64,000 bases of DNA from Streptococcus vestibularis (lineage in GTDB: Bacteria; Bacillota; Bacilli; Lactobacillales; Streptococcaceae), in contig JAABLG010000002.1 of assembly GCA_010604095.1 (NCBI GenBank), positions 129,836 to 193,835 of the forward strand, given 5' to 3'. Every line of letters starts with the position of its first letter. Position 1 is the first letter of the stretch. Under the pieces are notes generated by a model. That model had not been told where the DNA came from, did not search any database, and saw only the letters and a list, made by a program, of their open reading frames with translations. The position numbers were made by a program, and so were the translations under genes. Of the stretch, positions 44,394-52,700 are shown piece by piece.

Positions 44394-44912
44394 TTAGAAT
44401 GGAAGATCGTCATCTGAAATATCCATAGGATTTGAGTTTCCAAATGGACTTTCATCACGACCGAAGTTTGGTGTAGATTGTGCAGGTTGTGATCCACCAA
44501 ATGAACCACCAGCTGAAGCTTCACCACCGAATGAGTTTGAATTATCAAACCCTCCAGCGTTGTATGAACCACCACTGTGACCTTCACGTGTCGCACGGCT
44601 TTCCAACATTTGGAAATTGTCAGCGACTACTTCTGTTACGTAAACACGTTGACCTTGTTGATTTTCATAGTTACGAGTCTGAATACGACCTGTAATGCCA
44701 ATCAATGCGCCTTTCTTAGCCCAGTTAGCCAAATTTTCAGCTTGCTGGCGCCAGATAACACAGTTAATAAAGTCTGTTTCACGTTCACCATTAGCACCCT
44801 TGAAGTTACGGTTAACTGCAAGGCTAAAAGTTGCTACTGCAACATTACTTGGTGTATAACGAAGTTCCGCATCACGGGTCATGCGACCAACGAGTACGAC
44901 ATTATTAATCAT
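44394..44912 (-). CDS. ssb: Single-stranded DNA-binding protein
   Basis: The 172-aa protein has an OB-fold ([23 protein letters not shown] ... [17 protein letters not shown] ... [21 protein letters not shown]), a Gly/Ser/Asn-rich linker and the acidic C-terminal tip [10 protein letters not shown] that recruits partners. It is the main replication SSB, judged by operon position between rpsF and rpsR. Confidence 0.97.
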
Positions 44913-44933
44913 AATCTACCTTCATCTACCTTC

Positions 44934-45224
44934 TTAAGCGTCAAGTTTAACGATCATGTGACGAAGAATGTCACCGTTGATTTTTGAAAGACGGTCAAAC
45001 TCATTAAGAGCAAAATCGTTATCAGATTCAACGTTAACAACGTGGTAAAGTCCTTCACGGAAATCTTGGATTTCGTATGCAAGACGACGTTTTTCCCAAT
45101 CTTTTGATTCAACAACAGTTGCACCGTTGTCAGTCAAGATAGAATCGAAACGTGCTACCAAAGCGTTTTTAGCTTCTTCTTCAATGTTTGGACGAATGAT
45201 ATAAAGAATTTCGTATTTAGCCAT
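44934..45224 (-). CDS. rpsF: Ribosomal protein bS6
   Basis: Start ATG 45224 ([19 protein letters not shown]) gives the standard 96 aa. GAGGAGGAAAATATCA precedes it; a longer frame to 45311 is only leader sequence. Signatures: [19 protein letters not shown] and [18 protein letters not shown]. Confidence 0.97.
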
Positions 45225-45330
45225 TGATATTTTCCTCCTCTTTTGGTCTAATGACTCATGGTCTTTCGCCACGAGTAAGTGAGGTGCACTCACAGGATAT
45301 AATTCTACCAAAGATTAAAGGATAATGCAA
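45225..45330 (-). promoter_or_regulatory. rpsF operon promoter and structured leader
   Basis: On the minus strand, -35 TTGCAT (45330-45325), 17 nt, -10 TAGAAT (45307-45302). The ~75-nt leader has GTGAG/CTCAC and CTCGTGG/CCATGAG stems. In many bacteria this leader binds S6:S18 for autoregulation. I can see structure but cannot confirm the S6:S18 motif by eye. Confidence 0.65.
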
Positions 45331-45486
45331 GGAAAAAAGAGTAAGTAGTATGTGTCCTTTTTTGGGAGAAACTAAAATCACCAAGAGAGTAGGAACACAG
45401 CCCCCTTACCTTTCTATCGTATGGCACCTCAAATAACGTTAAAAACTTCCAACAAGCGTCATAAAAAACTGAAATGAGAGCTAACA
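45331..45486. other. Intergenic, no convincing gene
   Basis: Between the rpsF promoter and the terminator of the mini-ORF array. A minus-strand frame reaching 45496 has no ribosome site and overlaps both the terminator and the rpsF promoter; I see nothing functional. Confidence 0.5.
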
Positions 45487-45522
45487 AAAAGCTCATCCTT
45501 ACACGCTAGAATGAGCTTTTTA
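45487..45522. terminator. Terminator of the mini-ORF array
   Basis: AAAAAGCTCAT (45487-45497) pairs with ATGAGCTTTTT (45512-45522), with a 14-nt loop and T-tracts on both strands. It lies about 70 nt past the last mini-ORF. Confidence 0.85.
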
Positions 45523-45591
45523 AGAATCTTCTATTGTCATCAGACTATTCCTTTTAGAATTTTTGTAAAAATATTTTTTCATAAGGAGGTG

Positions 45592-45627
45592 TCACTGTGT
45601 GTCACCATTTTTCAATCTAGCAATCAT
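45592..45627 (-). CDS. Mini-ORF 6 of KNGD array (11 aa)
   Basis: MIARLKNGDTQ, with TGGAGGTAATCT before its ATG. It is the most divergent copy: RL replaces RY but KNGD is kept, followed by TQ. Last unit before the terminator. Confidence 0.7.
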   Translation of the reverse strand: MIARLKNGDTQ

Positions 45628-45702
45628 AGATTACCTCCATTAACTTAAAAAAGAATTGTAACTAAGTCACGATTTTCTATTACATTGGTATCACTCCTTA
45701 AG

Positions 45703-45762
45703 CTATTTTGTGCAATAACCTGAAGAGTCTCCATTTTTATAACGTCCTAGATTCATCATCAT
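45703..45762 (-). CDS. Mini-ORF 5 of RYKNGD array (19 aa)
   Basis: MMMNLGRYKNGDSSGYCTK, preceded by AGAGGTGATTGCT. The core is followed by a seven-residue tail read from the next unit's 5' block, including the only cysteine of the family. Confidence 0.78.
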   Translation of the reverse strand: MMMNLGRYKNGDSSGYCTK

Positions 45763-45823
45763 AGCAATCACCTCTGATTCTTATCATCTGGGACCCATCT
45801 TCCTATTGACCACTCAATGAGAC

Positions 45824-45868
45824 TTATTTATCGCCGTTCTTATAACGACTCACATCAAACATCAACAT
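45824..45868 (-). CDS. Mini-ORF 4 of RYKNGD array (14 aa)
   Basis: MLMFDVSRYKNGDK, preceded by CGAGGTGACGCTT. The N-terminus differs from the other units, but the core is identical and written with different codons (CGT TAT AAG AAC GGC GAT), so the peptide rather than the DNA seems conserved. Confidence 0.8.
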   Translation of the reverse strand: MLMFDVSRYKNGDK

Positions 45869-45972
45869 AAGCGTCACCTCGGTACTTTGTAACAAGATTT
45901 AAGTATTAAATGCTTCCGATAAATTATTCTACTCGCATGGATATCACTTCTTAAGCCATCTTAAACAACAAC

Positions 45973-46011
45973 TTAAGTATCTCCATTTTTATATCTACTA
46001 ACATTTCTCAT
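45973..46011 (-). CDS. Mini-ORF 3 of RYKNGD array (12 aa)
   Basis: MRNVSRYKNGDT, preceded by GTGAGGTAAAGCTC. Core codons AGA TAT AAA AAT GGA GAT. Confidence 0.8.
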   Translation of the reverse strand: MRNVSRYKNGDT

Positions 46012-46104
46012 GAGCTTTACCTCACTTTTTGACGTTAATCTTTTAAAATTTAGCTTGCGATTTCTGGTGGTATCACTCCCTTGTAGCTATTTTATGCGAC
46101 TCTC

Positions 46105-46137
46105 TTAATCTCCGTTCTTGTAACGCCCTACTGTCAT
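46105..46137 (-). CDS. Mini-ORF 2 of RYKNGD array (10 aa)
   Basis: MTVGRYKNGD, the shortest copy, preceded by TAAGGAGTGTAGCAGT. Core codons CGT TAC AAG AAC GGA GAT. It stops directly after the core. Confidence 0.8.
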   Translation of the reverse strand: MTVGRYKNGD

Positions 46138-46201
46138 ACTGCTACACTCCTTAGAGACCAATTGTAAAGTTTTTGTTTTGCCTACTGTTTTATTAGAGAG
46201 C

Positions 46202-46243
46202 TCAGTCTCCATTTTTATACCTTGAAATATTGATCGTCACCAT
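46202..46243 (-). CDS. Mini-ORF 1 of RYKNGD array (13 aa)
   Basis: MVTINISRYKNGD, the first unit after the promoter, with AAGGAGGTAGTAGCC before the ATG. It stops directly after the core. Confidence 0.8.
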   Translation of the reverse strand: MVTINISRYKNGD

Positions 46244-46286
46244 GGCTACTACCTCCTTGATGAATCCTTATCTTCTTTACAGTTTT

Positions 46287-46315
46287 ATTATAATGTAAAC
46301 GCTTACTTTTGTCAA
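46287..46315 (-). promoter_or_regulatory. Consensus promoter with embedded cre-like site, driving the mini-ORF array
   Basis: On the minus strand, -35 TTGACA (46315-46310), exactly 17 nt, -10 TATAAT (46292-46287). The spacer contains TGTAAACGCTTACT (46294-46307, plus strand), which fits the CcpA cre consensus TGWAANCGNTNWCA except at the last base. Strong transcription with repression during growth on preferred sugars is expected. Confidence 0.85.
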
Positions 46316-46359
46316 TCTTTTAACTCGAAAACGCAAGATTTTTTGAAAAAAGATTTCTT

Positions 46360-46374
46360 TGCTACAATAGAGAC
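46360..46374 (+). promoter_or_regulatory. Leaderless extended -10 promoter of mutY
   Basis: TGC-TACAAT (-10 at 46363-46368), 6 nt, then the ATG at 46375. Initiation about 7 nt after the -10 would fall on or next to the A of ATG. No Shine-Dalgarno is present. Confidence 0.7.
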
Positions 46375-47526
46375 ATGTTAGATTTAAAAGATTACGGCAT
46401 CATCATGTGGGATGCTGAGAAGATTGCTTCCTTCCGTCGCACGCTCCTCGACTGGTACGATCGTGAAAAACGTGATTTACCTTGGCGTAGGACCAAAAAT
46501 CCTTATTATATCTGGGTCAGTGAAATCATGCTACAACAAACCCAGGTACAGACTGTCATTCCTTATTACGAGCGCTTCTTAGACTGGTTCCCTTCCGTTA
46601 GGGATCTGGCTGAAGCTCCAGAAGAAAAACTCCTCAAGGCCTGGGAAGGATTGGGTTACTATTCACGTGTCCGAAACATGCAAAAGGCTGCCCAGCAAAT
46701 CATGGATGACTTTGATGGTCAGTTTCCAGATACATATGAAAACATTGCCAAACTCAAGGGCATCGGACCCTATACTGCTGGTGCTATTTCTAGCATCGCT
46801 TTTGGACTCCCAGAGCCCGCTGTTGATGGTAATGTTATGCGGGTTATGGCCCGTCTCTTTGAGGTTAACTACGATATCGGAGACCCCAAAAATCGTAAAA
46901 TTTTCCAAGCAATCATGGAGATTCTAATTGACCCTAACCGACCCGGCGACTTTAATCAGGCCCTTATGGACCTCGGGACCGATATTGAATCTGCCAAAAA
47001 TCCAAGACCAGACGAAAGCCCTATTCGCTTTTTCTGTGCAGCCTATCTCAACGGAACCTATGACAAATACCCCATCAAATTACCTAAGAAAAAGCCCAAG
47101 CCAATGCAAATTCAGGCTTTTGTTATCAGAAATATGAAGGGTGAATTTCTGCTCGAAAAAAATATCGAGGGGCGCCTACTAGGTGGTTTCTGGTCCTTCC
47201 CTATCATGGAGACGGACTTTATTGGCCAACAACTCAGTCTTTTTGAAAACGATAATTATGTCCTCGAAACCGTTTCACAAAAAGCTATTTTCGAGGAAAA
47301 TTACGCCCTCAAACCAGACTGGACAGATAATGGTTTTACACCTGTAAAACATACCTTCAGCCACCAAAAATGGACCATCGAGATGGTGGAAGGTAGTGTT
47401 AAAGACGATAAACTCATTACCGATAAGGAGCTATGCTGGGTAGCAGCTGAGGACTTCGACCAGTTCCCAATGGCCACTCCACAAAAGAAAATGATTAAAA
47501 CTTATGAAGACAGCAAAAAAGGATAG
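46375..47526 (+). CDS. mutY: A/G-specific adenine glycosylase (cluster-less MutY)
   Basis: The 383-aa base-excision enzyme removes adenine opposite 8-oxoG. It has catalytic Glu50 in SEIMLQQT, the helix-hairpin-helix/GPD region GIGPYTAGAISS with Asp151 (AVDGNVM) and a C-terminal NUDIX-like 8-oxoG recognition domain (about 245-370). The four cysteines that hold the 4Fe-4S cluster in most MutY proteins are absent (the region reads DLGTDIESAKNPRPDES). This cluster-less form is known from lactic acid bacteria. The start matches pneumococcal MutY (MLDLK). Confidence 0.95.
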   Translation: MLDLKDYGIIMWDAEKIASFRRTLLDWYDREKRDLPWRRTKNPYYIWVSEIMLQQTQVQTVIPYYERFLDWFPSVRDLAEAPEEKLLKAWEGLGYYSRVRNMQKAAQQIMDDFDGQFPDTYENIAKLKGIGPYTAGAISSIAFGLPEPAVDGNVMRVMARLFEVNYDIGDPKNRKIFQAIMEILIDPNRPGDFNQALMDLGTDIESAKNPRPDESPIRFFCAAYLNGTYDKYPIKLPKKKPKPMQIQAFVIRNMKGEFLLEKNIEGRLLGGFWSFPIMETDFIGQQLSLFENDNYVLETVSQKAIFEENYALKPDWTDNGFTPVKHTFSHQKWTIEMVEGSVKDDKLITDKELCWVAAEDFDQFPMATPQKKMIKTYEDSKKG

Positions 47527-49970: not shown

Positions 49971-52700
49971 TTATCTCTCCCTCACATTTTCAATATCTTG
50001 ATCTGTAATTGTATTATAGTCAGTACTTCCTTCTCTGTTAACACGTGTTGAAACATATCTAAGCAATCTTTCATTAAAGTTTCTGACCCAGCGACCATTA
50101 CTATGGTCATTTGTTACCGAATAATTCTGGGTAACGACCTCGGCGTAAAGTGCCTCATTAACTTCATAATCTTGCTTATGAAGCCCTAACAAACCAATCT
50201 GTACAATCTCTTCTGGCGTATAATCTTCAAAATCAAACGTTGTTGGAATGCGACTACGAAGACCTGAATTCGTCTCTAAAAATTCGGCCATTTCTTTGGT
50301 ATAACCTGCAAAGATAATAACAATATCTCGTCTATGATCTTCCATAAATTTTAGAATCTCATCAATGGCTTCTTTACCAAAATCGTTTGCACCACCTGAG
50401 CTAAGTGTATAAGCTTCATCAATAAACAAAACTCCACCTAACGCACTTTCCAAGACTTCCTTAGTCTTGATTGCTGTATGACCAATGTAACCGCCCACCA
50501 AATCGCTTCGAGAAACCTCGATAAACTTGTTCTGACTTATTACACCTTTTTGGTAGAGAATACTACCTACAATACGAGCGACCGTTGTCTTGCCTGTACC
50601 TGGATTTCCCAAGAATAGAGAATGTAGCGTTGTATCATCTACAGTACCACCTTGCTCTGCACGTTTTTTATTAAACTCTGCCATGTCAATAAACTGTTTG
50701 ACCTGTTCTTTGACTTTAGAAATACCAATCAAATTATCCAAAGTGACCATGGCATCTTCTTGTCCATCTACACCTTCTTTATATTTATCTTCTTCAAAGA
50801 CTGCATCGATATCCACATTCATGATTGTCTCAATATCTTCTGAATCTTGCTCATTGACGCGGGCAGCAAACGTTTTAACTAATTTCTCATTTAAGTTACG
50901 AATCCATCTACCATTGCTCTTATCAAGCGATACATCATAAGCACGTTTAACATGTTGAGCATAATAATCTGAATTTTCTAGTTTATAACCTCCTTTAGCA
51001 AGGAATGACTTACCTAGTTGGACAATTTCATCATCACTATAATCTTCAAATATAAAGGTATTTGGAACACGCGACTTTAGACCTGGATTAGTTTGAAGGA
51101 ATTGCTCCATTTCTTTCGTGTAACCCGCAAAGATAATCATTATATCATCACGATTATCTTCCATATATTTCAAGATGGTGTTAATTGCTTCAATACCATG
51201 ATCTACGCCTTGTTTCTTATGCAGAGTATAAGCTTCATCAATAAATAAGATGCCACCTTTAGCCTTTTCTAATAAACGTTGAGTTTGTTCAGCAGTACCG
51301 CCCACATTAGACGAAATCAAATCAGATTCTGTCGCTTCAACAAATCGGAAAGAATCGCCTGACAATACTCCATTTTGATAGAGAACCTCACCTAACAAAC
51401 GAGCTACTGTAGTCTTACCTGTACCTGGATTTCCCATAAAAACAGAATGAAGTGTCTGCTTTTCAGGCGGTAATCCCTTTTCAATACGCTTTTTGTTGAA
51501 GTCAACCATACGAACCATCTTTTTAATCTCTTGCTTAACCTTATCAAGACCAACAAGATTATTTAGTTCCTCAAGAGCATTATTTTCATTTTCTTTCGGT
51601 TGAATCTGTACTTCGGAAGTTTCTAAAACATACTTACTATCATCGGAAATCTCATAATTTAAATCTGCGATATCTCCTTCGGGATAGCTCAGATTTTTTA
51701 TTTGAAGATAGGAAGAACTCGACACACGACAGTTAGGCTCAACACTACGATGAAGGACTAAACAATCGGCAAAGATTGCACTGTTATCATTTAATTCTAA
51801 ATCTATCTTTTCGCTGTTATTTCCAAGAAAATTAATCTCACCTCTAAAAACACCAAAAGATTTTTCGTTTAAGAGTATAATATCAGTAATTGTTGTTTGC
51901 TCTAAGTACACTTGACTTGAATAAGTATTTATTGACGTAATTCTGTCATTTTGAGACGAAAATAATACATTTTCAGACAAGTTAATTGAATTTATATAGT
52001 TTGGTTGTACCATTGATGTCGACTCAGAAGCCCAGACAACATTTTCTAACCAAATCAAAGGAAGATTATTTTGAGTATTTCCACCTTTAATTGTTGAGCT
52101 TTTTACCGTTATTCTAGAGTCAGTAGCACAAATTGCATTTTTAGTATAATGCTCCAAGTGAACACTGTTCATCATCATTCTAGACCCTTGCTCTAAATCT
52201 AATTGACCCAAAATTCTAGAATTTTCAATGATTAACTCTGAGGAAAAAACACCAACTGTCGTAGTTGAGCCATTAACCACCTTCATCCCTACTTCATTCA
52301 GATGAAGCTTAGCGTTATTGCTTGCATAAAGTAAGAACTTCTCATTGTTTAAAATTTGCTCTTCAAAATAAATATTCGTACAAAAAACATCTGCCCCATT
52401 TGTTACAGAAAGAGCAACTCTATTATCACTCGTTTTAAACCATAGATTTTCAAAGGTCACCTTCGCTCCATTTGTCACATCAAAATATGCGTTAAGAACA
52501 TTATGAAAAGTACTGTTACCTGCTTTCTTTTCCACGTGTCCAACAAAGTGTAGGTCCTTTTCAATTACCTGTACACTGAAAGATGGAAGCTCATATGTAT
52601 ATCCTTTATCAAACTCAATGATATCACCATTTTTAGCAGCATTGTAGGCATCAGTAAAATTCCAACAATTGCTACCTGTACCCACTAAATATCGTGCCAT
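49971..52700 (-). CDS. Beta-helix protein fused to two CbxX/CfxQ-type AAA+ ATPases
   Basis: The 909-aa protein combines an N-terminal right-handed beta-helix-like region (about 20-350: many short N/S-rich turns such as NLWFKTSDNRVALSVTNGADV) with two AAA+ modules. The first has Walker A GNPGTGKTT (423-431) and Walker B GGILFIDEAYTL (482-493). The second has Walker A GNPGTGKTT (698-706) and a matching GGVLFIDEAYTL. The modules belong to the CbbX/SpoVK/EccA class. No signal peptide, so cytoplasmic. EccA-like AAA proteins act with type VII secretion, but no ESX genes are visible here. A remodeller with a built-in recognition scaffold is inference. Confidence 0.88.
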   Translation of the reverse strand: MARYLVGTGSNCWNFTDAYNAAKNGDIIEFDKGYTYELPSFSVQVIEKDLHFVGHVEKKAGNSTFHNVLNAYFDVTNGAKVTFENLWFKTSDNRVALSVTNGADVFCTNIYFEEQILNNEKFLLYASNNAKLHLNEVGMKVVNGSTTTVGVFSSELIIENSRILGQLDLEQGSRMMMNSVHLEHYTKNAICATDSRITVKSSTIKGGNTQNNLPLIWLENVVWASESTSMVQPNYINSINLSENVLFSSQNDRITSINTYSSQVYLEQTTITDIILLNEKSFGVFRGEINFLGNNSEKIDLELNDNSAIFADCLVLHRSVEPNCRVSSSSYLQIKNLSYPEGDIADLNYEISDDSKYVLETSEVQIQPKENENNALEELNNLVGLDKVKQEIKKMVRMVDFNKKRIEKGLPPEKQTLHSVFMGNPGTGKTTVARLLGEVLYQNGVLSGDSFRFVEATESDLISSNVGGTAEQTQRLLEKAKGGILFIDEAYTLHKKQGVDHGIEAINTILKYMEDNRDDIMIIFAGYTKEMEQFLQTNPGLKSRVPNTFIFEDYSDDEIVQLGKSFLAKGGYKLENSDYYAQHVKRAYDVSLDKSNGRWIRNLNEKLVKTFAARVNEQDSEDIETIMNVDIDAVFEEDKYKEGVDGQEDAMVTLDNLIGISKVKEQVKQFIDMAEFNKKRAEQGGTVDDTTLHSLFLGNPGTGKTTVARIVGSILYQKGVISQNKFIEVSRSDLVGGYIGHTAIKTKEVLESALGGVLFIDEAYTLSSGGANDFGKEAIDEILKFMEDHRRDIVIIFAGYTKEMAEFLETNSGLRSRIPTTFDFEDYTPEEIVQIGLLGLHKQDYEVNEALYAEVVTQNYSVTNDHSNGRWVRNFNERLLRYVSTRVNREGSTDYNTITDQDIENVRER

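Follow-up and report, generated by a model that had tools for sequence, protein, structure and literature searches.

What do six very short open reading frames with one shared ending do between mutY and rpsF of Streptococcus vestibularis, and does selection act there on peptide, on RNA or on both? The window (the whole 64,000-nucleotide stretch of DNA that was analysed) carries, on the minus strand at 45592-46315, six mini-ORFs led by Shine-Dalgarno (SD) sequences, which share the core R-Y/L-K-N-G-D and have a single promoter on their 5' side. The first-pass annotation had described six ORFs with their sequences, their SDs and a single consensus promoter, and had read the sixth unit as an RLKNGD variant; all of these are present, the promoter being sigma-70-like and matching at 12/12 positions. 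The promoter cre site, the likely terminator, the start-stop sites, the hairpins and the 3' CCTCCTTATGA element described below were absent from that annotation. The array, with its mini-ORFs as read from the sequence, is laid out as follows:

46287..46315, minus strand: array promoter, TTGACA-17-TATAAT, 12/12 consensus positions
46294..46308, minus strand: predicted CcpA cre site in the promoter spacer, one mismatch to WTGNAANCGNWNNCW
46202..46243, minus strand: mini-ORF 1, MVTINISRYKNGD, 13 residues
46105..46137, minus strand: mini-ORF 2, MTVGRYKNGD, 10 residues
45973..46011, minus strand: mini-ORF 3, MRNVSRYKNGDT, 12 residues
45824..45868, minus strand: mini-ORF 4, MLMFDVSRYKNGDK, 14 residues
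45703..45762, minus strand: mini-ORF 5, MMMNLGRYKNGDSSGYCTK, 19 residues
45592..45627, minus strand: mini-ORF 6, MIARLKNGDTQ, 11 residues
45486..45521, minus strand: likely intrinsic terminator in the gap between array and rpsF, formed by a 14-base inverted repeat whose 3' arm is rich in T

The mutY gene lies on the opposite strand and is transcribed away from the array, and rpsF-ssb-rpsR follow 3' of the array on the same strand (all four names being what we take these genes to be from their translations). The likely terminator was missed by our terminator scan, its T run being part of the stem, and was found through the inverted repeat and the fold; as it precedes rpsF, the array is probably read as its own transcript of ~800 nt, and no regulated cistron stands directly 3' of the window array. 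A role as rpsF leader was rejected on account of this likely terminator and of genomes G131 and G165, where an ABC transporter follows the array in place of rpsF. Elsewhere in the window, 49971-52700 encodes a 909-residue protein with, by eye, a repeat-like N-terminal part and two AAA+ domains.

The first-pass annotation had proposed a motif search of related genomes, which finds the core conserved: at least two exact cores inside ~2 kb, counted from the match tables, occur in 40 of 197 Streptococcus genomes, against two matches anywhere in 2/197 for a reversed control pattern. The degenerate 18-nt core as such is present in 72/197 genomes, many of its matches there being off-target Ser-Tyr-Lys-Asn-Gly-Asp of an ABC transporter (six shown). 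The window genome has five exact matches, every one in the array, and allowing one mismatch adds two on other contigs. The 41 arrays analysed comprise that of the window and 40 others, one per Streptococcus genome; the array of genome G055 holds only one exact core and one variant. The start of mutY falls inside 35 of the 41 array stretches and rpsF or ssb inside 18, the stretches being short, and the arrays contain 1 to 8 units (mean 3.8 by the SD-ATG ORF rule). SD-led ORFs with RYKNGD number 142 in the 41 array regions and 0.0 per round in dinucleotide shuffles (30 rounds), while 189 SD-led ORFs of 9-21 codons were observed compared with 26.8 in shuffles. A chance origin of the SD-led core ORFs is excluded. 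A search for a phage origin gave no matches among 50,697 phage records at E 0.01.

In a survey of named loci, the best 80 of 589 loci were fetched by mutY, giving 38 Streptococcus and 42 non-Streptococcus records. Among these 80, an array stands upstream of mutY in 7/38 Streptococcus records (loxodontisalivarius, sp. 'caviae', hillyeri, ictaluri, sp. ZJ373, orisasini and uberis); none was found there in merionis or cuniculipharyngis, in the 29 remaining Streptococcus records (mitis, oralis, infantis, cristatus, sanguinis, parasanguinis, pseudopneumoniae, xiaochunlingii and unnamed species) or in the 42 records from outside the genus.

The promoter is kept along with the units, scoring at least 10/12 in 40 of the 41 arrays (none was recognised in L093). 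Across the −35/−10 spacer of these 40 lies a match to WTGNAANCGNWNNCW, which we take to be the cre consensus and on which the call of a CcpA site is based, with no mismatch in 5 arrays, one in 30, two in 4 and three in 1; sites with at most one mismatch are found in 35/40 promoters compared with 0.4/40 when the spacers are shuffled. Array transcription is predicted to be under CcpA control.

For the coding sequence of the units, all SD-ATG ORFs no longer than 40 codons were called throughout the 41 arrays without reference to the motif (284 in total, 222 with at least six residues). The best identity to RYKNGD over the 222 is bimodal, with 0-3 identities in 67 ORFs, 4 in none, 5 in 13 and 6 in 142. 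For the 142 distinct mini-ORFs from 41 genomes, distinct as nucleotide versions and taken at four or more identities to the core (a threshold that favours low pN, yet no ORF falls on it), the core gives pS 0.94 and pN 0.04, a pN/pS of 0.042, with third codon positions free. Its sequence is RYKNGD in 130, RYRNGD in 4 and RYSNGD in 2, with six singletons; the Asp is unchanged in 142/142 and K/R-N-x-D is found in 139/142. The first-pass annotation's claim of selection at the level of the peptide gains from these figures, and purifying selection on the core is strongly supported.

The constraint extends beyond the core on its N-terminal side, the unit profile being M-[LMI]-x-[MFL]-[NHD]-[VIL]-[SGA]-RYKNGD, and the length from Met to Asp is 13 in 105/142 and 10 in 20/142. 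Past the Asp, the C-terminal tail runs from 0 (44/142) to 17 residues, so there is no fixed C-terminus. In 138/142 the Asp codon is followed directly by A or T, compared with 67% A+T in the arrays; the codon formed there is a stop in 44/142 and otherwise mostly Thr, Lys, Asn, Ser or Ile, and the second tail codon is mixed. A restricted base directly after Asp followed by a mixed codon points to constraint on what would be the A-site codon.

Between the units, further elements were identified:

46194..46211, minus strand: hairpin in which the GGA-GA codons of unit 1 pair with CTCTC downstream, from the fold of this stretch
46177..46186, minus strand: element AGTAGGCAAA behind unit 1, a match to GGTAGGCAAA
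45695..45726, minus strand: hairpin behind unit 5, 10 pairs, loop TTGCACAAAA, its 3' arm covering the start-stop SD
45680..45699, minus strand: start-stop site, SD AAGGAG then ATG TAA, from the SD-AUG-stop search
45579..45589, minus strand: CCTCCTTATGA, anti-SD-like element 3' of the last unit, a match to CTCCTTATGA

Most of these recur. GGTAGGCAAA (at most two mismatches) is present in 38/41 arrays, mostly 3' of the first unit, and CTCCTTATGA (at most one mismatch) in 28/41, its 29 matches lying mostly 3' of the last unit and a few inside arrays; GGAG..CTCC pairing resembling the unit 1 hairpin was seen by eye in other arrays. The element AAGGAGTGATACC-N-AUG occurs in 31/41 arrays, with 55 sites at up to four mismatches, some of which are other SDs. 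SD-led AUG-stop sites number 28 in the 41 arrays compared with 6.9 in shuffles, AUGUAA accounting for 23 of the 28. A stem 5' of the start-stop site with its 3' arm over the SD reaches at least 8 pairs in 19/38 elements versus 1.6% of shuffles, a count that leaves out 4/42 elements without an anchor and in which the anchor rule mis-set a few. This hairpin element stands behind some units only, and in 30 of 32 units the end of the Asp codon is 26-27 nt from the start-stop SD. The point at which the ORF stops within the hairpin varies from unit to unit and the hairpin does not, so it seems to be kept as RNA.

The structural evidence on these elements is mixed. Pairing of the start-stop stem in fixed register is 74.6%, compared with 28-53% when slid and 71.5% with shuffled partners; both-side changes occur in just 2/9 pairs, a weak covariation. 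RNAalifold returned no consensus structure for either element, and the fold of the whole array hardly outdoes mononucleotide shuffles (z −1.9). A covariance model of the hairpin element gave 48 matches in 31/197 genomes, all at array loci by coordinates and many of them sequences used to build the model; the match in G195 lies at a locus with a single exact core before rpsF. The mean unpaired fraction of the SD is 0.36 in free RNA and 0.54 with a ribosome placed at Asp, the latter to be set against 0.52 for a shuffled spacer, and accessibility is lowered in a few units. An Rfam 15 scan of 44900-46500 yielded two matches, both under gathering score, and no known RNA family.

Both in Streptococcus and in another family of Lactobacillales, single units also stand 5' of genes that are bacteriocin-like or encode small membrane proteins. 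An order-wide search of 246 genomes found the core in 21, of which 13 are outside Streptococcus; 10 loci were read from these 13, six of them without a unit-like appearance. Three genomes of one family (f4) carry SD-led mini-ORFs, MTIFNVSRYKNGD, MNFYNVSRYKNGD, and MNLNPMRYKNGD with MIYENSYRYKNGD in one locus, each 36-76 nt before a gene, and a genome of another (f6) has the core within a 42-codon ORF, 23 nt before a gene. On these sequences, the spread beyond Streptococcus would amount to one further family and one doubtful case. In front of the two-unit f4 locus is a BlaR1-type M56 peptidase gene, and the transporter to which the locus leads scores best against the lactococcin-972 exporter model, falling just short of its cut-off. 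Within Streptococcus, G171 has MNYNNSHRYRNGD 76 nt before a PF09683 gene. A gene begins 23-179 nt 3' of the single unit in L256 (twice), L257, L258, L259, L307, L038, L228 and L039, and the length from Met to Asp is 13 in seven of eight single units (SD-led mini-ORFs) and 12 in the eighth. By eye, the contexts of single units in the two families share nothing beside the core. The lactococcin-972-like locus L256 (7252-13032), which lies behind an M56 peptidase gene of the BlaR1 type, has a pair of RYKNGD leader ORFs, each preceding one gene.

A general role as lactococcin-972 leader was rejected, a unit being present in 1/47 PF09683 loci with a start called (56 loci, L262-L317, a part of the matches; the ORF rule gave a start in 47, some misplaced). 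Seven PF09683 matches outside this set (G039, G045, G065, G081, G085, G122 and G161) lie a few hundred bases behind out-of-frame cores. Genomes G021, G026 and G244 carry one MLKMNMSRYKNGD unit near a PTS gene, with its own promoter and cre as in the arrays; at loci L042 (1150-1900), L260 (4150-4800) and L040 (near 9362) a single MLKMNMSRYKNGD unit of this kind lies in a long intergenic region.

Three Streptococcus locus types have a unit behind a phr-like pre-peptide gene (MSYNLPNRYKNGDF, MRYSLPSRYKNGDI and MNYCNNFRYKNGDMLNSR). These units are followed on the 3' side either by a SagB-type cluster or by lactococcin-972-like genes, which exceed the TIGR01654 cut-off in L261 and score under that of TIGR01653 in L228, and an HTH/TPR regulator, which in one case scores HTH_3 and RNPP_C, adjoins two of the three. 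We presume the regulator to be of the TprA/PhrA kind, and that kind to be under carbon control. Among 30 loci of one TprA-like regulator, phr was recognisable in 16, and behind it stood an intact core in 1, RYKNED in 1, a core out of frame in 7, a start-near-stop element in 5 and neither in 2; with seven of the 16 out of frame, the core is dispensable there. In L057, L060, L061, L067, L068, L069 and L074 the core codons are kept, or nearly so, behind phr, out of frame with the SD-led ATG, and in L048, L051, L056, L064 and L066 a AAGGAGTGATTCCAATG-like sequence behind phr resembles the array start-stop element. At about 3500-9726 of L039 lies a SagB-type cluster for azole peptides; it includes short precursors rich in Cys, a TprA-like regulator and a phr gene ending SNGLDVGKAD, and relaxase- and recombinase-like genes surround it.

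The reading that we favour, tentatively and at something short of an even chance, is that the array is a stand-alone, CcpA-controlled RNA in which each unit peptide pauses its own ribosome at Asp and thereby remodels the RNA. The array would form its own RNA, and each unit peptide, in most cases spanning 13 residues from its Met to the Asp of the R-Y-K-N-G-D core, would act within the ribosome that produces it, the pause falling with Asp in or beside the P site. Stalled in this way, the ribosome would cover the RNA 3' of the Asp codon and open the hairpin there; by the geometry, and only in units with that hairpin, this would free the following SD and start-stop site. For a single leader unit, pausing may set expression of the bacteriocin-like or small membrane gene 3' of it, whereas the output of an array is probably the RNA's own folding, ribosome load or lifetime. 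Candidate triggers of the pause are an intrinsic property of the peptide, a metabolite or a ribosome-targeting compound. We infer the transcription unit, its CcpA control, translation, arrest, trigger and output from the sequence comparisons.

The same core in two families with no other shared context suggests a universal partner, of which the ribosome is the obvious one, and the variable tails, like the limited choice of codon after Asp, would be in line with an effect exerted while Asp is in or near the P site. Several features sit less easily with pausing: the weak covariation and poor folding, the SD accessibility that a ribosome at Asp raises only to the shuffled-spacer level, the hairpin behind some units only, the out-of-frame cores behind phr and the shortness of the likeness to ErmBL all speak against it. 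A start-stop site is an odd target for pausing-driven release of an SD, and the N-terminal constraint would not be needed by a model confined to the peptidyl-transferase centre. The +X+ macrolide motif, which we presume R-Y-K to resemble, was rejected as the sole reason for the core because it leaves N-G-D unexplained.

Of the three roles offered by the first-pass annotation, none is shown. The role as signalling or antimicrobial peptides without leader, which would leave the cell and be recognised by, say, a regulator of the TPR type, the many copies raising the dose, is the foremost alternative and still unlikely. Peptide-level selection would suit it, as would the unit behind a phr-like gene in three Streptococcus locus types, two with an HTH/TPR regulator and with bacteriocin-like genes following. 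PMC10518010 gives a precedent within the genus, but known leaderless signals are mostly of 8-10 hydrophobic residues with distinct codes, and the units here have a polar core, identical in two families. Tails of 0-17 residues and the elements kept as RNA around the units also speak against a signal. Pairing of the array with TprA/PhrA was rejected: units follow phr in some loci, but in a search confined to TprA-like receptors the regulator (E 1e-15) was found in only 7/40 array genomes and not in the window genome. Action within the producing ribosome is preferred over a secreted signal because the core is kept across families, the tails vary, the codon after Asp is restricted and a hairpin-covered SD lies 26-27 nt behind Asp.

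A ribosome or tRNA sink, in which SD-led mini-ORFs and start-stop sites absorb initiating ribosomes at sugar exhaustion while the peptide slows release, is improbable. Up to eight SD-led units per array, the excess of start-stop sites over shuffles and the cre in the promoter would all serve such a sink, but single units 5' of genes and two-unit arrays are left unexplained by it. The first-pass annotation's 'mRNA that loads many ribosomes' comes nearest to what we favour, namely pausing that remodels the RNA. Less probable again is a trans-acting regulatory RNA that would base-pair with its target mRNAs through the loop, GTAGGCA and CTCCTTATGA motifs, the peptides being secondary: the recurrence of GGTAGGCAAA and CTCCTTATGA is what it would call for, but the core pN/pS and the lack of an Rfam family at gathering score oppose it. 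RiPP-like substrates of a modifying enzyme encoded elsewhere, a role also put forward at first pass, are very improbable. One single unit inside a cluster with a SagB-family dehydrogenase speaks for them, but that cluster has Cys-rich short precursors of its own, and no modifying enzyme was seen among the ORFs of window 40-52 kb (both by eye).

If pausing occurs, the array may possibly, though this is more doubtful than the pausing itself, represent a regulatory RNA of a new class, transcribed under carbon control and composed of up to eight arrest modules (a 13-codon peptide, many with a hairpin and start-stop landing site) that read ribosome state, the module being reused as leader of bacteriocin-like genes in more than one Lactobacillales family. 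It would be, to our knowledge, the first stand-alone RNA of repeated arrest modules, would tie carbon state to ribosome state and would offer a defined short sequence for study. If the units are a signal instead, it would be a multi-copy peptide signal common to much of the genus. In either case a selected peptide-coding repeat is present in at least 41 Streptococcus genomes, under the size limits of ordinary gene finding.

In the literature searched, no relative of the tandem mini-ORF layout is described and RYKNGD is not mentioned, in keeping with the first-pass statement that no known family has this layout. Start-stop sites and lambda bar-type minigenes consist of an SD followed by AUG-stop or a very short ORF and engage ribosomes; the array shares the SD with immediate AUG-stop and differs in that such sites are interspersed among 13-codon ORFs under selection and the whole is conserved as an array. 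TprA/PhrA loci resemble it in that some have one RYKNGD unit right behind phr, whereas the window array has neither a neighbouring phr gene (by eye) nor a TprA-like regulator (by eye and by regulator search). With SIP-RopB-type peptides it has in common a leaderless tiny ORF near target genes in streptococci, but the array peptides are polar and longer, with a core kept over two families and variable tails, rather than short hydrophobic peptides with a code of their own per system, and no RopB-type receptor was seen by eye among the ORFs of 40-52 kb. Arrest leaders of the ErmBL, Cat and TnaC type share more: a short SD-led ORF, Asp at the presumed pause site, a hairpin over a downstream SD, and single units 5' of a gene. 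According to PMC4935803, the ribosome paused on ErmBL has Asp10 at its P site and Lys11 at its A site, and Arg7 and Val9-Lys11 are critical; R-N-V-D of ErmBL, with Arg three residues before Asp, parallels K/R-N-x-D of the array, a likeness of few residues. Unlike these leaders, the array has up to eight tandem units, a likely terminator, no cistron of its own, a cre promoter and start-stop sites, and it is not known to be linked to any drug. By analogy, the nearest mechanism would be that of ErmBL-type arrest leaders; the units are not filed as Erm leaders, and their stand-alone tandem layout sets them apart.
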